From the NCBI GenBank assembly GCA_017418445.1, contig JAFONM010000071.1:1-34286 (forward strand): 34,286 nucleotides of DNA, given 5' to 3'. Source of the DNA: Kiritimatiellia bacterium (lineage in GTDB: Bacteria; Verrucomicrobiota; Kiritimatiellia; RFP12; UBA1067). Under the pieces are notes generated by a model, which was not told the DNA's origin, did not search any database, and saw only the letters and a list, made by a program, of their open reading frames with translations. Of this stretch, positions 11,564 through 19,275 are shown piece by piece (position 1 is the first letter of the stretch; the number at the start of each line of letters is the position of its first letter). The translations under genes and the position numbers were made by a program.

Positions 11564-11592
11564 TTGTCACGGGCGTCGGAATAGTGTATAAT
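11564..11592 (+). promoter_or_regulatory. Sigma-70-type promoter for the htrA-like pair; near-leaderless
   Basis: TTGTCA at 11564-11569 and TATAAT at 11587-11592 are separated by exactly 17 bases, a near-consensus promoter. The -10 ends nine bases before the ATG at 11602, so the predicted start site (about 11599-11601) leaves a leader of zero to three bases without a ribosome-binding site. Confidence 0.78.
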
Positions 11593-11601
11593 AGCGTCGG
11601 T

Positions 11602-12984
11602 ATGCAGACAATACGCAATCAGTTGGCGCGGACTCTTGCCGTCGCCGCGGCGGCCTCGTCGCTGGTCCTTCTCGCAGGGTGTGTCACGTCGGCCGATACG
11701 CCGCACGACTTCCGCAAGACGATCGCGAGCGCGAAGGAGTCCGTCTTCCCGGCGCTCGTATACGTCCGCGTAGTTTCCTCGGACCTCGATTCGGGCAAGA
11801 ACGACAAGGTCGTCTCGAGCGGATCGGGCGTCGTCATCACCCCCGACGGCGAGCTCCTCACGAACCACCACGTCATAGACAAGGCGACTGAGATACGCTG
11901 CCTTCTCGCGGACGGATCGTCCTACGAGGCGGAGGTCGTAGGCGACGACAAGGACCTCGACATAGCCGTCCTCAGGCTCAGGCGCGGAGATGCAACTGCG
12001 GCGCTTCCGTACGCGGTCCTTTCGACCAACACGGTGTCGATAGGCGACGTGGTCCTCGCGATGGGCGCTCCGTGGGGGCTCGCGAGGTCCGTCTCGATGG
12101 GCATAATCTCGTGCACCGACCGCTATCTGGAGGGATGCGGACAGTACACGCTCTGGTACCAGACGGACGCCGCGATATCGCCCGGCAACTCGGGCGGACC
12201 GCTCGTGGACACCGAAGGACGCGTCGTCGGAATCAACGCTCGAGGAGTCACGTTGGGCGCGCAGGCGTTCACGATTCCGTCGCCGATAATCCTCGAGGTC
12301 CTCCCGAACCTCAGGAAGTACGGCAACGCGCACTGGTCGTGGTTCGGATTCCGGTTCCAGCCGCTCCACGACTTCGACCGCAACATCCGCTTCGCGGCGA
12401 CGAACGGCGTCATCGTCTCCGGGACGGATCCGGCGAGTCCCGCGCGAGAGGCGGGCGTGAAGCCCAACGACCGCGTGGTCGCGATCGACGGCATGGCCGT
12501 CGACGGCGGGAGCTGGGAGAGCCTGCCGGCGATAGAGCGCGAACTCGGACGTCGGCCGGTCGGCACGAAGGTCCGGTTCGAGGTGGACCGCGCGGGCAGG
12601 ACGCTGACATTCGAGATCGCACCGCGCGAGAAGGGCGCGGTCGAGGGCGAGGAGAAGGTGTTCCCGCGCTGGGGCTTCACGGCGAAGGAGATCAACGCCT
12701 TCGCGAATCCGGAGCTTGCCTTCTTCGCGAAGAACGGAGGGGTCTTCGTCTCCGCCGTCGCGTGGGACGGGAACGCCGAGCGCGCGAAGCTCAAGGAGCG
12801 CGACATAATAGTCTCCATCGACGGGAAGGGCGTGAAGACCATCAGCGAGCTCGACGCCGTCTACGAAGCGGCGCTGAAGGGGCTTCCGTCCAAGACACAG
12901 ATGAGCCTTGGCGTGATGCGCGGAGGCCGCCGGATCGAAATCGTCCTCAACTACACGGAAGACACGGAAAAGGAGTCGCTCTGA
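11602..12984 (+). CDS. HtrA/DegP-like serine protease lipoprotein with two PDZ domains
   Basis: The 460-residue protein has a signal peptide ending in the lipobox LLAGC (lipidated Cys27). A trypsin-like domain (about 45-235) has the full triad: His90 in TNHHVID, Asp120 in DLDIAVL and Ser197 in SPGNSGGPL. Two PDZ domains follow (about 245-340 and 355-450). It should be a membrane-anchored periplasmic quality-control protease. The ATG at 11602 is chosen because it starts the signal peptide; the in-frame GTG at 11584 lies within the promoter and would add six residues ahead of it. An extra His next to the catalytic His (TNHH, where TNNH is usual) is a minor variation. Its stop overlaps the next start by one base, coupling it to a related protein that seems to have lost catalysis. 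Confidence 0.93.
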   Translation: MQTIRNQLARTLAVAAAASSLVLLAGCVTSADTPHDFRKTIASAKESVFPALVYVRVVSSDLDSGKNDKVVSSGSGVVITPDGELLTNHHVIDKATEIRCLLADGSSYEAEVVGDDKDLDIAVLRLRRGDATAALPYAVLSTNTVSIGDVVLAMGAPWGLARSVSMGIISCTDRYLEGCGQYTLWYQTDAAISPGNSGGPLVDTEGRVVGINARGVTLGAQAFTIPSPIILEVLPNLRKYGNAHWSWFGFRFQPLHDFDRNIRFAATNGVIVSGTDPASPAREAGVKPNDRVVAIDGMAVDGGSWESLPAIERELGRRPVGTKVRFEVDRAGRTLTFEIAPREKGAVEGEEKVFPRWGFTAKEINAFANPELAFFAKNGGVFVSAVAWDGNAERAKLKERDIIVSIDGKGVKTISELDAVYEAALKGLPSKTQMSLGVMRGGRRIEIVLNYTEDTEKESL

Positions 12985-15158
12985 TGAAATGCATTCTCAC
13001 GATGGTCGTCGCAGCCGCGGCGGTTTTCAGTTCCGCCGCGGACACGGGTTCAGTCGACCGCGTCGCCCGCACCAGGAAGCTCGTTTCCGAGTACGGCGAT
13101 TCAGTCGCCATGGTCGCGTTCTACTTCAGGACGGAGCCGGACGGCACTGCGCCTACGTTCTCGATTCCGTACCTCTGCCCCAACTGCAACTCCACGCACT
13201 ATCGCGGGGCCGACGACTACCTCAAGGAAAACCGTCCGTTCGAGTGCGCGGGATTCTTCCTGTCGGGCGACGAGGTGCTTGTGCAGGACCCGCTCCTGCG
13301 CTCCGCGTGGGTCGATCGCATAGAGGTGCGGTTCGGGAAGTCCCAGACGAAGTATCCCGCGAGGCCGGTCGCCACGTTTCCGGCGGAAGGCGGGATGCTT
13401 CTGAGGACCGACAGGCCCGTCGAAGGCGCGAAGCCGCTGGAGTTCGCGAAGGCGGAGAAGGCGCCGGAGAAGCCGGTCTACTTCTACCTCGTCCGGGAGA
13501 AGGGGTTCGCGGTGGCCGGCATCAAGGACTCCAGGGCCGCCGAGTTTCGGCACTTCGTCGACCTCGGGCGCGACATCGCCGGCGGAGTGCCAAACACGAT
13601 CGTCATCGACGAGAACGACCGTCCCGTGACGGTCGCGCTGCAGCAGAGATTCGACCTCGGAGGCGAGGTGACGGCTCCGCCCGCGGAATGGAAGCGCGAC
13701 GCACCCGACGCCTGCGACAGAAAGTGCGCCGCGGCGGAAAAGGCGCTTGCCGCGGCCGTGGTTCCGGTGTACATCCGGCTGGACGCGAAGGAGAAGGAGC
13801 GCGACTCGTACAGATTCCGTTCATGGAGCAGCGACGGCGACAATGTCAAGGACGAGAACGACACGTGCGGCTACGCGCTTCCCGGCGGTAAGCTGCTCGT
13901 TCCCATCAAGATGAACGCGGACGAGACGGCGCGCATATCGAAGATGGAGGCGACGCTGCCGGACGGAACGAAGCGCGACCTCGAGTTCGTCGGATCGGTC
14001 GACACGTACGGGGCTGTCGTCGTGGAGTTCGCCGGCGAGGCTCCGAAGGGGCTTTCGCCGCTCGGACTCTACGACGGGACCATAACCGACCTCTTTCTAG
14101 GGAAGGTCGTCTGCGCCTCTCGTAAGAACATCGGCGGAAAGCTGTCGGTCAAGGCGTCCATGTCGGAGGTCGGCGAATTCGCCGTGGGCTTCGACGAGAA
14201 GCTCGAATTCAGCGTTTCGTCCGGCAAGGGCGGTTCGGCGTTCGTCCTGACGGAGGACGGCAGGCTCGTCGCGATAGAGCTTTCGCGCCGCTCTTCCAGG
14301 AAGAGATACGGAGACAGCGACGAGCTTGTGTACGGCGAGGAGCTCGCGGCTCTGATGTCCGGCAGGGCGGCTTACGACGCCGAGCTCGTTCCGAGAACGG
14401 GCGAGGACCGCATCCGCACCGCCTGGATCGGGGTCGAGGTGCAGCAGCTTACGGATTCGATAGCGCGCGAGAAGAAGGCCGCGGCCTTCCTTCACACGGG
14501 CATGACCGATACCGACGGATCGCTTGTCTCGAAGGTCTATCCCGGGACGCCGGCGGCGGAGCTCGGAATCAAGGAAGGCGACGTCCTTCTCGACGTGAGG
14601 ATCGCCGGGACGGAGAACCGCAGGGATCTCGAGGCGGAGTCGTATGAAATGTCCGGCATCGACTGGAGCGAGGTGTACGAGAAGGTTCCGCTGGACATGT
14701 TCGGGCGCGTGGACGTTACGCCGTGGCCTGCCGTCGACAAGGGCGTCAACTCCGTCTTCACGGAAATCGGCATAGGCGAGAGCGTGATCGTGGCATGGGT
14801 TTCGGACGGCGTCCGCAGGGAGGGGGAGACGGTCCTCAGGTCCGCGCCCCCCTACTTCAGGAACGCCCCGAAGGCGCGCATGAAGGACGTCGGTCTCGTC
14901 GTAAAGGACATGACGTTCGAGGTGCGCGGATACTTCCGCTTCGACGACGACGCTCCGGGCGTCGTCATCGCGAAGGTCAAGCCCGGCTCTCCCGCGGCGA
15001 TCGCGGGACTGAGGCCGTACGAGATCGTCACGGAGGTCGACGGAGCCAAGGTCGCGGACGCGAAGTCGTTCGCCGCCGCCGTCAAGGACAGGAAGGAGAT
15101 CACTCTTTCGGTCCGCCGCCTGAGCGCGACGCGCATGGTGAAGATATCCGTGAAGTGA
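12984..15158 (+). CDS. Exported HtrA-like pseudoprotease with degenerate trypsin-like domains and two PDZ domains
   Basis: The 724-residue protein has a signal peptide (about 1-19), a CPNC motif at 65-68, and two regions that resemble a worn HtrA barrel (about 86-228 and 296-435). Two PDZ-like domains follow (about 478-618 and 634-722; GSLVSKVYPGTPAAELGIKEGDVLLDVRI and GVVIAKVKPGSPAAIAGLRP are typical carboxylate-loop and helix segments read in part). In the second barrel GKGGSAFVLTEDGRLVAIEL aligns with GNSGGPLVDTEGRVVGINAR of the upstream protease. The nucleophile Ser is absent there, and VQDPL or VPIKM stand where TNHHV would be. I infer a non-catalytic partner or scaffold for the upstream protease. 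The PDZ call is firm; the pseudoprotease call rests on eye alignment. Confidence 0.8.
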   Translation: MKCILTMVVAAAAVFSSAADTGSVDRVARTRKLVSEYGDSVAMVAFYFRTEPDGTAPTFSIPYLCPNCNSTHYRGADDYLKENRPFECAGFFLSGDEVLVQDPLLRSAWVDRIEVRFGKSQTKYPARPVATFPAEGGMLLRTDRPVEGAKPLEFAKAEKAPEKPVYFYLVREKGFAVAGIKDSRAAEFRHFVDLGRDIAGGVPNTIVIDENDRPVTVALQQRFDLGGEVTAPPAEWKRDAPDACDRKCAAAEKALAAAVVPVYIRLDAKEKERDSYRFRSWSSDGDNVKDENDTCGYALPGGKLLVPIKMNADETARISKMEATLPDGTKRDLEFVGSVDTYGAVVVEFAGEAPKGLSPLGLYDGTITDLFLGKVVCASRKNIGGKLSVKASMSEVGEFAVGFDEKLEFSVSSGKGGSAFVLTEDGRLVAIELSRRSSRKRYGDSDELVYGEELAALMSGRAAYDAELVPRTGEDRIRTAWIGVEVQQLTDSIAREKKAAAFLHTGMTDTDGSLVSKVYPGTPAAELGIKEGDVLLDVRIAGTENRRDLEAESYEMSGIDWSEVYEKVPLDMFGRVDVTPWPAVDKGVNSVFTEIGIGESVIVAWVSDGVRREGETVLRSAPPYFRNAPKARMKDVGLVVKDMTFEVRGYFRFDDDAPGVVIAKVKPGSPAAIAGLRPYEIVTEVDGAKVADAKSFAAAVKDRKEITLSVRRLSATRMVKISVK

Positions 15159-15186
15159 CGCATCGCATCCGCCGGTCCCGGACCGT

Positions 15187-15219
15187 CGCCGCGTCCCATT
15201 GCCCGCGGCGCCTATTTTT
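15187..15219 (+). terminator. Intrinsic terminator after the pseudoprotease gene
   Basis: CGCCGCG (15187-15193) and CGCGGCG (15204-15210) form a perfect seven-base stem with a ten-base loop, followed by CCTATTTTT. The -35 region of the next promoter (TTGCCC, 15199-15204) lies inside the loop and the edge of the stem, so terminator and promoter overlap. Confidence 0.65.
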
Positions 15220-15227
15220 GGTATAAT
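15199..15227 (+). promoter_or_regulatory. Promoter for the greA-dksA-lspA-miaA unit
   Basis: TATAAT at 15222-15227 has TGG directly before it (extended -10). TTGCCC at 15199-15204 stands 17 bases upstream as a four-of-six -35. The predicted start is near 15234, with AAGGAG at 15244-15249 ahead of the ATG at 15257. Confidence 0.72.
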
Positions 15228-15256
15228 CTCCGCACTTCATTTCAAAGGAGACATAG

Positions 15257-17269
15257 ATGGCAGCAACAGAAGAACTGGTTGGCAAGTTGAAGGAGTTTGC
15301 GGAGAAGCAGGACTTTGGCGGTGCGTTCGCCCTTGTCCGCGAACATCAGGCGGAGCTCGACAAGGGCCTGACCGGAGAGGGGATACGCGACGAACTGAAG
15401 AAGACGACCAAGGATCGTCTTCTTCTTTCTTTTCTGGACGCGGCGGGATTCGGAGAGAAGCCGCTCGACAAGTCGCTGTTCATAGTGGAGAAGCTTCGCG
15501 GCTTCACGCCCGGGACGCTGGTCCTCAACGAGACGTGGGGGGTCGGCAAGGTCAAGAGGGCGGACGACTTCTACCGCAAGATCACGGTCGACTTCAAGAT
15601 GAAGAGGGGCCATCAGTTCACATATGCCGCCGCGGTCGACCTTCTCGAGAGGGCGCCCGAGGACCACGTCCTCGTCCTCAGGGAGGCGGATCGCGCCGCA
15701 TACGACGCCCTTTTCGAGAAGAAGGGCGAATTCATCAAGGCGGTTCTGAAGAGCTACGGCGACATGCCTGCGACGAAGCTCGAGAGCGTGTGCGTCTCGA
15801 CCGGGATGGTCAAGGCCGCGAACTGGAAGAAGTACTGGGACGCGGCGCGCGCGGAACTCAGGGCCGACAAGCTGGTCGAGATCCCGGCGAAGCGCGCGGA
15901 TCCGATCCGCCTCAGGGCGTCCGCCGAGAACTACGGAGACAGCTGGCTCACGGCGTTCTCGCACGAGACCGACCCGAAGCTCATCCTCGCCTCGGCGCGC
16001 GAATTCGTCGAGGAGGGCAGGTTCAAGACCGCCAGCGACGCGGAGAAGGCGGTGGTCGGCGAGAGGCTCGCGTTCGCGATCACCGCGTCGCGCAACGTCG
16101 ACGACGCGCTGTACGCGCGGCTCGCATGCATGCTGACGAAGCTCGGCTTTGAGAAGCCGCCGGCCGCGGAGATGCGCGACTACCTCTGGGACCGCAGGCG
16201 CTTCGTCAAGTCGGCGGCGGACCTGCCTTCGCGCGAAGTCGGCGACATGATCCGCTTCATCGCGACCGACGCGGACGCGAAGGAGCGCGTCTACAAGGCG
16301 ATTCCCGCCCTCTGCTTCACGGCCGTCTCGGAGATCGTCTCCCAGTTCGGCGACGATCCGGCGTGCCGCAGGGCGGTCGGCGACCTGCTTCGCTCCGAGG
16401 CCGCTCCTGCGACGCTCGTCACGCTCGTCGTGGGCAAGTACGAGAAGTTCGCCGGCTGGGAGGAGCTTCCGCCCCTGGTCACGATACTTTCGCACGCCGT
16501 CGCCCTCGGCGAAGGCCGCCAGAACGGCGAGATCCTCAGGATGCAGAACATCGTCAGGCGCCTCTTCGGGGACGAGAAGTGGCTGTCCAAGATGTTCGCC
16601 GCGCTCAATCCCGCCGACCAGGTGCTCTTCTTCGAGCGCTTCCAGGCCTCCATAGCGTGGGATCCCTCGACGCACCACACGACGGTCGTCAGGATGACCC
16701 ACATCGTTCCCGAACTCGCGAGCCATGTCGTCAAGGTCGAGAAGAAGAAGGATTACGCGCGCGTCACGTCCTTCCGCGCCTACGCGACGAAGAAGGCGGA
16801 GTATCTCAAGCTCATCAACGAGGACATGCCCGAGAACGTCCGCAAGATCGAGTTCGCGAAGGGCTTCGGAGACCTCTCCGAGAACGCCGAATACCAGTAC
16901 GCGAAGGACGAACAGCGCCAGCTCATGCAGAAGCAGTCGCTCATGCAGGCCGATCTCGAGGCCGTCAAGGCGGGCGACTTCTCCGACGCCACGACCGACG
17001 AGGTCATGCCCGGCGTCACCGTCGTCATCTCCACGCCGGAGGGCGAGAAGACGTACCACGTCCTCGGCGAGTGGGACAACGACATCGAGAAGGGGATCAT
17101 CTCCTCGAAGACGCGTCTCGCGCAGAACATGCTCGGCAAGAAGGTCGGCGACCAGTTCGAGCTTCCCGGCGCCGAAGGCACGGTGAAGCTTGCGACGGTC
17201 AAGGAGATTCGCGCGCTTTCCGAAGACGTCCGCGAGTGGATGAAGCTTCCGCCCGGAATGCAAATCTGA
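15257..17269 (+). CDS. greA: Transcription elongation factor GreA with a very long N-terminal extension
   Basis: Only the last 160 or so residues of this 670-residue protein are GreA. A coiled coil (about 512-590) carries the tip GDLSENAEY near 539-547, whose Asp and Glu coordinate the Mg ion for transcript cleavage. A FKBP-like C-terminal domain (about 590-665) follows, with GKKVGDQFELPG. The first 500 residues are mostly helical, charged and of unknown function, with a short beta-rich patch near 90-120 (TWGVGKVKRADDFYRKITVD). Chlamydial GreA proteins are known to have a similar large extension, which supports a PVC origin. The factor enters the secondary channel of RNA polymerase to rescue backtracked complexes. 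It has its own promoter and AAGGAG. A DksA-like gene follows 17 bases downstream. Confidence 0.9.
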   Translation: MAATEELVGKLKEFAEKQDFGGAFALVREHQAELDKGLTGEGIRDELKKTTKDRLLLSFLDAAGFGEKPLDKSLFIVEKLRGFTPGTLVLNETWGVGKVKRADDFYRKITVDFKMKRGHQFTYAAAVDLLERAPEDHVLVLREADRAAYDALFEKKGEFIKAVLKSYGDMPATKLESVCVSTGMVKAANWKKYWDAARAELRADKLVEIPAKRADPIRLRASAENYGDSWLTAFSHETDPKLILASAREFVEEGRFKTASDAEKAVVGERLAFAITASRNVDDALYARLACMLTKLGFEKPPAAEMRDYLWDRRRFVKSAADLPSREVGDMIRFIATDADAKERVYKAIPALCFTAVSEIVSQFGDDPACRRAVGDLLRSEAAPATLVTLVVGKYEKFAGWEELPPLVTILSHAVALGEGRQNGEILRMQNIVRRLFGDEKWLSKMFAALNPADQVLFFERFQASIAWDPSTHHTTVVRMTHIVPELASHVVKVEKKKDYARVTSFRAYATKKAEYLKLINEDMPENVRKIEFAKGFGDLSENAEYQYAKDEQRQLMQKQSLMQADLEAVKAGDFSDATTDEVMPGVTVVISTPEGEKTYHVLGEWDNDIEKGIISSKTRLAQNMLGKKVGDQFELPGAEGTVKLATVKEIRALSEDVREWMKLPPGMQI

Positions 17270-17286
17270 AGAAAAGGAGGTGCCAC

Positions 17287-18066
17287 ATGGCAGTAAAAGT
17301 ATCGTCGAAGAAGCCCGCCAGGAAGGCGGTCAAGAAGGCCGCTCCTGCGAAGAAGTCAGTTTCGTCCAAGAAGACGGCCAGGAAGCCTGCGAAGAAGGCG
17401 GCTCCCGCAAAGAAGCCTGCCAGGAAGGCGGCTCCAGCGAAGAAGGCGGCGAAAAAGCCCCTTAAGAAGGCGGCTTCCGCGAAGAAGGCCTCGAACCGCG
17501 TTCCGCCGCGCGTCGTGCGCAAGGCGCCGGTGATAGTCAAGACCCAGCCCGCTCCGGCGCCCGAGGTGGACACCAAGGCGGCCGTCGCTTTCGCGATGTC
17601 CATAGCCGAGGAGATGAAGCGTTCCGCGAAGAGGGAGGACGAGAAGCGCAACGAGACGGAGATCCGTCTCGCCCGCCGTCCCACCTCCAGGTCGAAGGGC
17701 AGGAATACGGTGAAGTTTCCGGCCGCGGACCTCGCGGACTTCCGCAAGCGTCTTCTCGAGGAGCGCGAGCAGGCGCTCGCCGGAGTCGACGCGATGAAGG
17801 CCACGGGCTTCAACGAAGCCGACGACCACGAGGCCGACGGCGGCGACGGCACCAACCAGACGCTCCGACTGCAGGCGCTCGGCCAGATGGGGCAGATCAA
17901 CCGCACCATCCAGAAGATAGAGGAGGCTCTCCACCGCATAGAGGACGGCACCTACGGCGTATGCACCGTGTGCGGACAGCTCATCCGCAAGCCCCGTCTT
18001 CTCAACCAGCCCTTCGTGCTGACCTGCATGGTGTGCCAGAGCGACATGGAGAAGAACCGCTTCTGA
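17287..18066 (+). CDS. dksA: DksA/TraR-type zinc-finger protein with histone-H1-like Lys/Ala-rich N-terminus
   Basis: The 259-residue protein starts with about 68 residues of KK-A-P-A-K repeats (units such as KKAAPAKKPARK), like eukaryotic and chlamydial H1-type DNA-binding tails. A linker follows, then a DksA coiled coil (about 145-220, FRKRLLEEREQALAGVDAM onward). The C4 zinc finger uses Cys226, Cys229, Cys247 and Cys250. An acidic stretch ADDHEADGGDG at 178-188 sits where the DksA coiled-coil tip should be. The fold suggests binding in the RNA polymerase secondary channel, with the basic tail able to contact DNA or RNA. AAGGAGG at 17274-17280 gives it a very strong ribosome-binding site. 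Whether it responds to ppGpp is not visible from sequence. Confidence 0.9.
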   Translation: MAVKVSSKKPARKAVKKAAPAKKSVSSKKTARKPAKKAAPAKKPARKAAPAKKAAKKPLKKAASAKKASNRVPPRVVRKAPVIVKTQPAPAPEVDTKAAVAFAMSIAEEMKRSAKREDEKRNETEIRLARRPTSRSKGRNTVKFPAADLADFRKRLLEEREQALAGVDAMKATGFNEADDHEADGGDGTNQTLRLQALGQMGQINRTIQKIEEALHRIEDGTYGVCTVCGQLIRKPRLLNQPFVLTCMVCQSDMEKNRF

Positions 18067-18575
18067 TGGCGCGTCGCGTCCTCATCACCGTCGTCGCCGC
18101 GCTGCACCTGGTTCTTGCGGACGCGGTGACGAAGGAGCTCGCGATCGGATACCTGAAGGGGGAGCGTCCGGTCGACCTGATTCCGGGGTTCTTCGGCCTC
18201 GCCTACGTCGAGAACCGCGGAGCGTCGTGGGGGATGTTCCAGGGACACGTGTGGCCCCTGGCCGTCTTCGGCGTCGCGGCGCTGGCGTTTCTCATCTGGA
18301 AGCGCAGGGACCTCTTTCTCGCGGGGGACGGGACGTGGCGCGGACGTGTCGGCGCGTTCGCGGAGACGTTCCTCTACGCCGGGATCGTGGGCAATCTCAT
18401 AGACAGGTTCTGCCGCGGGTGCGTCATCGACTTCGTTCACTGCCACTGGCGGGACGCGTGGCACTTTCCGTGCTTCAATCTCGCGGACATCTTCATCACG
18501 GCGGCCGCGGCGATGCTTGTCGTATTGGCGTTCGCGGTCCCGAAGAACGCGGCGAAGAAAGAAAATGACGCGTGA
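18066..18575 (+). CDS. lspA: Lipoprotein signal peptidase (signal peptidase II)
   Basis: The 169-residue membrane protein has about four helices and the family motifs: an N-terminal ADAVTKELA (Asp19 and the DxxTK element), YVENRGASWGMF at 48-58, GNLIDR at 109-114 and VIDFV at 120-124. NLADIFI follows at 138-144. Asp122 and Asp141 are the catalytic aspartate pair. The enzyme removes signal peptides from prolipoproteins, such as Pal and the HtrA-like lipoprotein encoded in this window. Its start overlaps the dksA stop by one base (TGATG). The insert between the first helices, and the Cys/His-rich stretch FCRGCVIDFVHCHW, are slightly unusual but keep the active site. Confidence 0.95.
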   Translation: MARRVLITVVAALHLVLADAVTKELAIGYLKGERPVDLIPGFFGLAYVENRGASWGMFQGHVWPLAVFGVAALAFLIWKRRDLFLAGDGTWRGRVGAFAETFLYAGIVGNLIDRFCRGCVIDFVHCHWRDAWHFPCFNLADIFITAAAAMLVVLAFAVPKNAAKKENDA

Positions 18576-19275
18576 GGTGTATCTCCTCGCCGGTCCCACG
18601 GCCAGCGGAAAGAGCGCGATAGCGGCCGAGCTCGCGCGCGAGACGGGCGCGAGGATTCTTAGCGCCGACTCGATGCTCGTCTACAGGGGCATGGACATAG
18701 GGACTGCGAAGCCGTCGCGGGAGGAAATCGCGGAGTTCGGAATGGGCGGCGTGGACCTTGTGACGCCCGCCGAGGAGTTTTCGGCCGGCGCGTGGCTCAG
18801 GGCGGCGGCGAAATGGGTCGCAACGGTGCCGGAGGACGTCCCCGTAATCGTCGTCGGCGGAACAGGGCTGTACTTTTCGGCGCTCCTGAGGGGGCTTGAC
18901 CGTGCATGGGAGAAGCCTCCGCCGGAATATCCGGTCGTGAAAATCGACCGTTCGACGGTCCGTGCGCGCATATCGGCGCGGCTCGACGCGATGTTCATGG
19001 ACGGGCTCGAGGAGGAGAAGAGGATCCTGCGCGAAAGGTATCCCGCGAGGTCGCGGACCGCGGCGCTCGCGATCGGCTACAGGGACGGCGACACCAGGGA
19101 GAGGATACTGACGCGCACGTGCCAGCTCGCGAAGCGGCAGGACACGTGGTTCCGCCACCAGGCGACGCCCATATACGTCGAACCGACGGTCGAGTCCGTG
19201 CGCGAATGCTGGCGGTCCCGCGGACCCTGGCGCGTCGACTTCCCGGATGTCCCCGAAACGGACCTGCGGCATTGA
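18565..19275 (+). CDS. miaA: tRNA dimethylallyltransferase MiaA, compact form
   Basis: The enzyme adds a dimethylallyl group to A37 of tRNAs reading UNN codons. This 236-residue protein keeps the P-loop GPTASGKS at 10-17, SADSMLVYRGMDIGTAKPS at 33-51, VVGGTGLYFSALL at 97-108 with Thr100, and the late GYRDGD...QLAKRQDTWFR block. Typical MiaA proteins are about 300-315 residues. Here the stretch between LLRGL and the RxRISARLDAMFMDGLEEE region is nearly gone: the usual HPND.R..RALEV segment and most of the swinging helical insertion are absent, about 75 residues. The catalytic core looks intact, so it may still be active with altered tRNA recognition. It overlaps lspA by 11 bases. Confidence 0.9.
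   Translation: MTREVYLLAGPTASGKSAIAAELARETGARILSADSMLVYRGMDIGTAKPSREEIAEFGMGGVDLVTPAEEFSAGAWLRAAAKWVATVPEDVPVIVVGGTGLYFSALLRGLDRAWEKPPPEYPVVKIDRSTVRARISARLDAMFMDGLEEEKRILRERYPARSRTAALAIGYRDGDTRERILTRTCQLAKRQDTWFRHQATPIYVEPTVESVRECWRSRGPWRVDFPDVPETDLRH

Follow-up and report, generated by a model that had tools for sequence, protein, structure and literature searches.

A conserved terminator-like hairpin inside the coding region of greA, upstream of dksA, in one lineage of Kiritimatiellia

In a Kiritimatiellia bacterium a gene for the transcript cleavage factor GreA and a gene for a DksA-like protein stand side by side, and both products carry large N-terminal extensions. The question raised by this locus is what the arrangement means. 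A first-pass annotation had called the extensions unusual, likened the Lys/Ala tail of the DksA-like protein to histone H1, and proposed that the two factors, co-expressed from one promoter, form a matched module in which the extensions localise them. Here we weigh that proposal together with another feature of the locus, a hairpin and T-rich tract early in the greA coding region. The window is the whole stretch of DNA analysed (34,286 nucleotides), and the features needed for the argument are the following.

15199–15227, + strand: putative sigma70-like promoter of greA (TTGCCC, 17 nt, TATAAT; 10 of 12 matches)
15257–17269, + strand: greA, long form, 670 aa (Pfam, NCBIfam, alignment)
15397–15425, + strand: intrinsic-terminator-like hairpin in the greA coding region, codons 47–60, with an 11-bp stem and a 7-nt loop (terminator scan)
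15426–15435, + strand: T-rich tract TTTCTTTTCT just 3' of the hairpin (terminator scan)
15494–15886, + strand: most strongly conserved portion of the extension, GreA residues 80–210 (alignment, AlphaFold2)
15932–16735, + strand: predicted ARM/HEAT-like helical solenoid of GreA, residues 226–493 (AlphaFold2, 10-residue blocks mostly with pLDDT >85)
16778–17209, + strand: Gre coiled coil and C-terminal domain, residues 508–651 (Pfam, structure comparison)
17287–18066, + strand: DksA-like gene, 259 aa (Pfam, NCBIfam)
17287–17571, + strand: Lys/Ala-rich N-terminal tail, DksA residues 1–95, predicted unstructured (composition, AlphaFold2)
18066–18575, + strand: lspA, its ATG at 18066 lying inside the dksA stop codon (Pfam)

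The description of two secondary-channel-type factors side by side is borne out by Pfam, which recognises the Gre domains and the zf-dskA_traR domain in products of genes separated by 17 nt. A promoter scan of 14900–18700 returned a single putative sigma70-like site, where shuffled sequences lead one to expect 0.2; it ends 30 nt upstream of greA, and each of the 15 sequences listed has a TATAAT or TATACT hexamer that starts 35–43 nt upstream of its ATG. Two sequences, AAAGGAG and AAAAGGAGGTG, look like ribosome-binding sites. Because there is one promoter-like site and a short gap, the sequence suggests that greA and the DksA-like gene are co-transcribed in the window, in agreement with the co-expression first proposed. 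The next gene after lspA is miaA. One PF01272 match and one PF01258 match were found in the window's genome, which is 65% complete. Two further observations concern the surroundings. Upstream, at 11584–15158, lie two consecutive PDZ-bearing genes, one of them a DegP/HtrA-like trypsin-PDZ gene and the other with only PDZ domains found. Downstream, MiaA (18562–19275) is short, with 227 residues from P-loop to stop; lengths of 217–232 residues are shared by the window and ten loci (L003, L004, L007, L008, L012, L013, L015, L017, L020 and L106), six other class loci have 302–318, and the short form seems to lack an internal segment that would follow the LLRGL motif.

The hairpin in greA presents the sequence anatomy of an intrinsic terminator, with a U-rich tract right behind a stable stem: 11 base pairs at −15.3 kcal/mol, with 8 T in the 10 nt after the stem. 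It lies upstream of most of greA and of all of dksA, and under strict terminator criteria it is the only site on either strand of the 34-kb window; a looser scan of 14900–18700 gave four sites against 3.3 in shuffles. Among near kin its position is nearly fixed: in 13 of 18 sequences it recurs 140–142 nt downstream of the start codon (140 nt in the window), and the terminator scan of these loci produced 11 other matches in 249 kb, both strands counted. A degenerate pattern that left the loop unconstrained was present in 46 of 114 genomes of the family, one site per genome, and its reversed control in none. These carriers comprise 43 of 61 genomes in the genus and three of five in one other genus, with none among the 48 genomes from the other genera of the family. 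By folding energy, the greA 5' end reaches −10 kcal/mol or lower in 46 of 57 genus genomes, and the hairpin is absent from the other 11; the 57 are the window and 56 others, the fragmentary G274 being excluded from the 58 that had greA and the L271 row being retained despite a failed start-codon check. Further away, a terminator-like site near the greA 5' end was found in 0 of 49 other greA loci of the class and phylum. A search of 15100–15600 against Rfam gave nothing above the gathering score, and inspection of the greA 5' regions revealed no clear antiterminator.

Selection acts on the nucleotides of this hairpin, and this conclusion is well supported. Random synonymous versions were drawn with the codon usage of the same genes and scored by hairpin energy and T-tract; the natural sequence beat this null at p ≤ 0.01 in 46 of 57 genus genomes and at p ≤ 0.001 in 44 of 57, while not one of 1140 further 15-codon stretches taken from these genes qualified. 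Codon choice at individual positions follows the same trend. The codon CTT is used for Leu55 in 46 of 53 sequences and for Leu56 and Leu57 in 45 of 50 each, while it makes up 16% of other leucine codons in residues 1–80 and at most 51% at any other single position (Leu34); TCT at codon 58 and TTT at codon 59 are enriched too, and loop codon 52 varies freely. Covariation is weak. One sequence (L285) has a double change from a G-C to an A-U pair, which comes with Leu56Phe; the count of double-changed pairs was reached by 17 of 500 shuffles and the score by 92 of 500, and the A-U pair at columns 10–24 cannot form in 18 of the 51 distinct rows. A plain scan of codon conservation did not place codons 47–59 among its top 14 of 683 windows.

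Taken together, we consider it most likely, with a confidence somewhat better than even, that the genus has a short greA-dksA operon in which the conserved hairpin and U-rich tract are an intragenic intrinsic terminator, in other words an attenuator. In this model, transcripts from the promoter at 15199–15227 would partly stop near 15435 and leave an RNA of about 200 nt; since part of the transcripts would end at the hairpin, full-length GreA and, in the window, the downstream DksA-like protein would be made by read-through alone. The RNA polymerase would have to reach the site before a ribosome covers the hairpin, and a closely following ribosome could prevent it from forming. Counting against the model are the weak covariation, the results of the plain codon-conservation scan and of the looser terminator scan, the lack of the hairpin in 11 genus genomes and in the 49 other class and phylum loci, the lack of a clear antiterminator, and a putative dksA promoter downstream of the hairpin in six near-kin loci. 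According to the part of the literature available to us, the GraL element in the E. coli greA leader stops roughly two thirds of transcripts, a share that rises with catalytically active GreA (PMC6829880), and of the gene families that are often controlled by attenuation, greA/rnk ranks seventh (PMC2965389). By analogy with GraL, the attenuator here may itself respond to GreA. The parts of this reading differ in strength: the case for the hairpin as a terminator, judged from its sequence, is moderate, the analogy argues weakly for a feedback device, and that the hairpin sets the output of greA and dksA is what we infer.

The same hairpin and tract may serve RNA in a way that leaves GreA and DksA levels alone, as an RNase site, as a pause that aids folding of the N-terminal domain, or as the 3' terminus of a small RNA that acts in trans. 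The conservation of the hairpin fits this equally, and trans effects are on record for GraL in the portions of the papers at hand (PMC6829880; PMC2965389). On the other side, a U-rich tract directly behind a hairpin is how an intrinsic terminator is built, and the codon choices favour stem and tract together (G at Leu47, ACG at Thr50, GAT at Asp53, CTT, TCT and TTT). We regard such a role as somewhat unlikely.

Whether the two proteins form a matched module depends on what their extensions are and where they occur. The claim that GreA carries about 500 extra N-terminal residues is confirmed, since the Gre domains begin only at residue 508: GreA_GreB_N covers 508–567 (51.8 bits, cut-off 24.5) and GreA_GreB 579–651 (50.8 bits, cut-off 26.9). 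D539 and E542 in the motif GDLSENAEY are invariant among 14 class-wide GreA sequences. We take them to be the catalytic acidic residues that correspond to D41/E44 of E. coli, at the tip of the coiled coil, and because this pair is invariant the sequences speak for the long GreA being an active cleavage factor. The extension alone (residues 1–500) matches NCBIfam PRK14720 at residues 68–267 (E 3.4e-18) and PRK06330, named "transcript cleavage factor/unknown domain fusion protein", at residues 83–293 (E 4.8e-11). Among the 108 class genomes listed, 101 have a GreA frame of at least 400 aa. For the phylum, 42 genomes were picked by hand from 145, 20 without and 22 with a match to the extension profile; GreA was found in 41, every frame being at least 621 aa, and the 42nd had no GreA match. 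The profile itself has matches in 99 of the 145 phylum genomes, which outside the class fall mainly at profile positions 77–250 and 308–500. The extension is thus a known and, in the phylum sample, a normal feature, and the idea that it is unusual was dropped on the strength of the 41 of 42 genomes. As a separate observation, a short Gre frame (<230 aa) occurs in 37 of the 108 class genomes listed, and long and short Gre coexist in many.

An AlphaFold2 model of GreA built from 18 sequences (mean pLDDT 79, pTM 0.43) predicts N-terminal helices, a small beta domain at 85–132, helices up to residue 202, the solenoid at 226–493 and the Gre domain, and because of this model we judge the extension to be folded, not disordered. 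Its best-conserved part, residues 80–210, comprises the small beta domain and helices with the motif W190-K-x-x-W194-x-x-A-R, and 18 of its 131 positions are invariant among 14 sequences. Structure comparison relates the solenoid generically to ARM/HEAT folds, with Z up to 8.6. In Pfam the extension matched DUF3553 alone (E 0.21), and a profile search of solved structures with GreA gave nothing beyond Gre proteins except weak hits on helical proteins that were either designed or unrelated. Foldseek and VIA searches with the whole model returned Gre proteins and generic solenoids, with residues 1–225 barely covered, and no further copy of the extension turned up in the window's genome.

In the DksA-like protein the basic tail is N-terminal. 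The zf-dskA_traR domain lies at 221–256 (35.8 bits, cut-off 24.9), AlphaFold2 predicts a coiled coil of helices 146–172 and 188–220, and the C4 zinc finger (C226, C229, C247 and C250) is invariant in 15 near-kin proteins. A D-x-x-D motif at the tip marks DksA proper. The sequence D184-G-G-D187 is likewise invariant in the 15 proteins, its register with the E. coli tip being unsure. The 147 residues before the coiled coil contain 32 K, 33 A, 15 P and 14 R, and residues 1–95 are predicted to be without structure (pLDDT block means 35–68). With a basic tail defined as at least 35 residues, K+R of at least 20% and a net charge of at least +10, 52 of the 66 class loci, from 33 of 38 families, have one, paired with greA or not (67 loci less one without a core match); the label "unusual" was dropped for this tail too. 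Among class tails of at least 35 residues the length ranges from 37 to 239. To judge from the loci surveyed, the tail is a class-wide, fast-changing and basic element, independent of greA pairing. A literature search for a DksA with a lysine-rich N-terminal extension gave no match. Between tail and coiled coil, at 17569–17727 (residues 95–147), near kin share a predicted helix and the motif AFAMSIAxEMK...RRPTTR.

The pairing itself is a local affair. The gene dksA directly follows greA in 15 of 18 near-kin loci; the other three (L005, L006 and L018) have a frame recognised by eye as TrpS-like behind greA, instead of dksA-lspA. Across the class the two genes are adjacent in at least 12 genomes out of 116, and in 7 of 39 families, figures that cover the 108 genomes listed plus a pairing in G098 added from the dksA-locus survey, and some cases scored as apart may be contig breaks (in G078 greA is near a contig end and dksA near a contig start). 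Compared by eye, none of the 41 genomes of the phylum sample showed the pairing, and on a GreA tree of 47 rows, 14 of them adjacent, adjacency requires eight changes. The constant neighbour of dksA is lspA, next to it in 60 of 66 class loci counted by eye. In addition, TATAAT or TAGAAT follows the greA TGA stop directly in 6 of 16 near-kin loci (L003, L007, L008, L015, L017 and L020), so that dksA may have a promoter of its own there, downstream of the hairpin; the 17-nt gap in the window contains no −10-like hexamer after the greA stop.

A matched GreA-DksA module, in which the extensions would place both factors, for example on DNA through the basic tail, can call on the pairing in near kin, the shared putative promoter of the window and the frequency of the basic tail in class DksA proteins. 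Against it, both extensions are equally common where the genes lie apart, the tail varies widely in length, adjacency has changed repeatedly on the GreA tree, and dksA has a putative promoter in six near-kin loci. We hold such a module to be improbable here, and as a general property it was dropped. Of the two extensions, the one on GreA is conserved and predicted to be folded, and it is the DksA tail that changes fast and is predicted to be unstructured. The first-pass annotation is thus correct as a description and mostly ordinary as biology: a PVC-type secondary-channel pair, made up of a long GreA whose catalytic residues are intact and a tail-bearing DksA, is by its sequence an ordinary one.

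Finally, it is very improbable that the peptide KKTTKDRLLLSF, codon bias and common descent together produced the hairpin as a side effect: AAG AAG and CTT CTT are complementary codons and the carriers all belong to one genus except three, but the synonymous null and the positional leucine control disfavour it, and several of these genes seldom use CTT at other places, as in greA of L005, where it accounts for 4 of 70 leucine codons, three of them within the hairpin stretch.

The attenuator reading can be extended to a fuller scenario, which we put forward tentatively as a possibility well short of even. In one rumen and gut lineage of Kiritimatiellae, the KKTTKDRLLLSF peptide and an intrinsic terminator would share the same bases, read-through would set the supply of both factors, and GreA, perhaps with DksA, would tune that supply by altering how RNA polymerase behaves at the site, making it a convergent GraL within coding sequence. 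A coding-region version of greA attenuation looks new; a search by titles and abstract openings found none in the literature. If true, greA attenuation arose more than once and can hide in coding sequence, where leader-based searches would for that reason miss it, and a simple bench test could ask whether Gre factors control their own supply.

Several known systems can be set beside the elements of this locus. The DksA/TraR family (YteA, DksA) has the coiled coil and C4 zinc finger in common with the window protein, which differs in about 147 residues before the core, in the Lys/Ala tail, and in falling below the NCBIfam DksA equivalog cut-offs (49.8 vs 105 and 47.8 vs 115.5 bits). With the histone H1-like Hc2 family it shares Lys/Ala composition, and in this respect the H1-like description stands; membership of that family does not follow, the HC2 match (E 0.12) scoring 12.9 against a cut-off of 40. 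PRK14720 (906 aa) and PRK06330 (718 aa) have an extension homologous to that of the window GreA, although the whole protein stays below their curated equivalog cut-offs (163 vs 714 and 128 vs 697 bits). The GreA of C. trachomatis (715 aa) is a long form as well, which the available part of a review calls unusually large, doubting its comparability with E. coli GreA (PMC10995303). Seen as an oddity in Chlamydia, the long GreA is standard in our phylum sample, with an extension that is conserved and predicted to be folded, and the intact catalytic residues bear on the view, as expressed in that part of the review, that size suggests a non-comparable protein. With the GraL and greA-leader attenuators of E. 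coli, Enterobacteria and bacilli, as far as the accessible parts of the papers describe them (PMC6829880; PMC2965389), the hairpin shares a terminator-like element early in the greA transcript; those elements lie upstream of greA, whereas the candidate described here, known from sequence, lies in codons 47–60, belongs to a single lineage and stands ahead of dksA as well.
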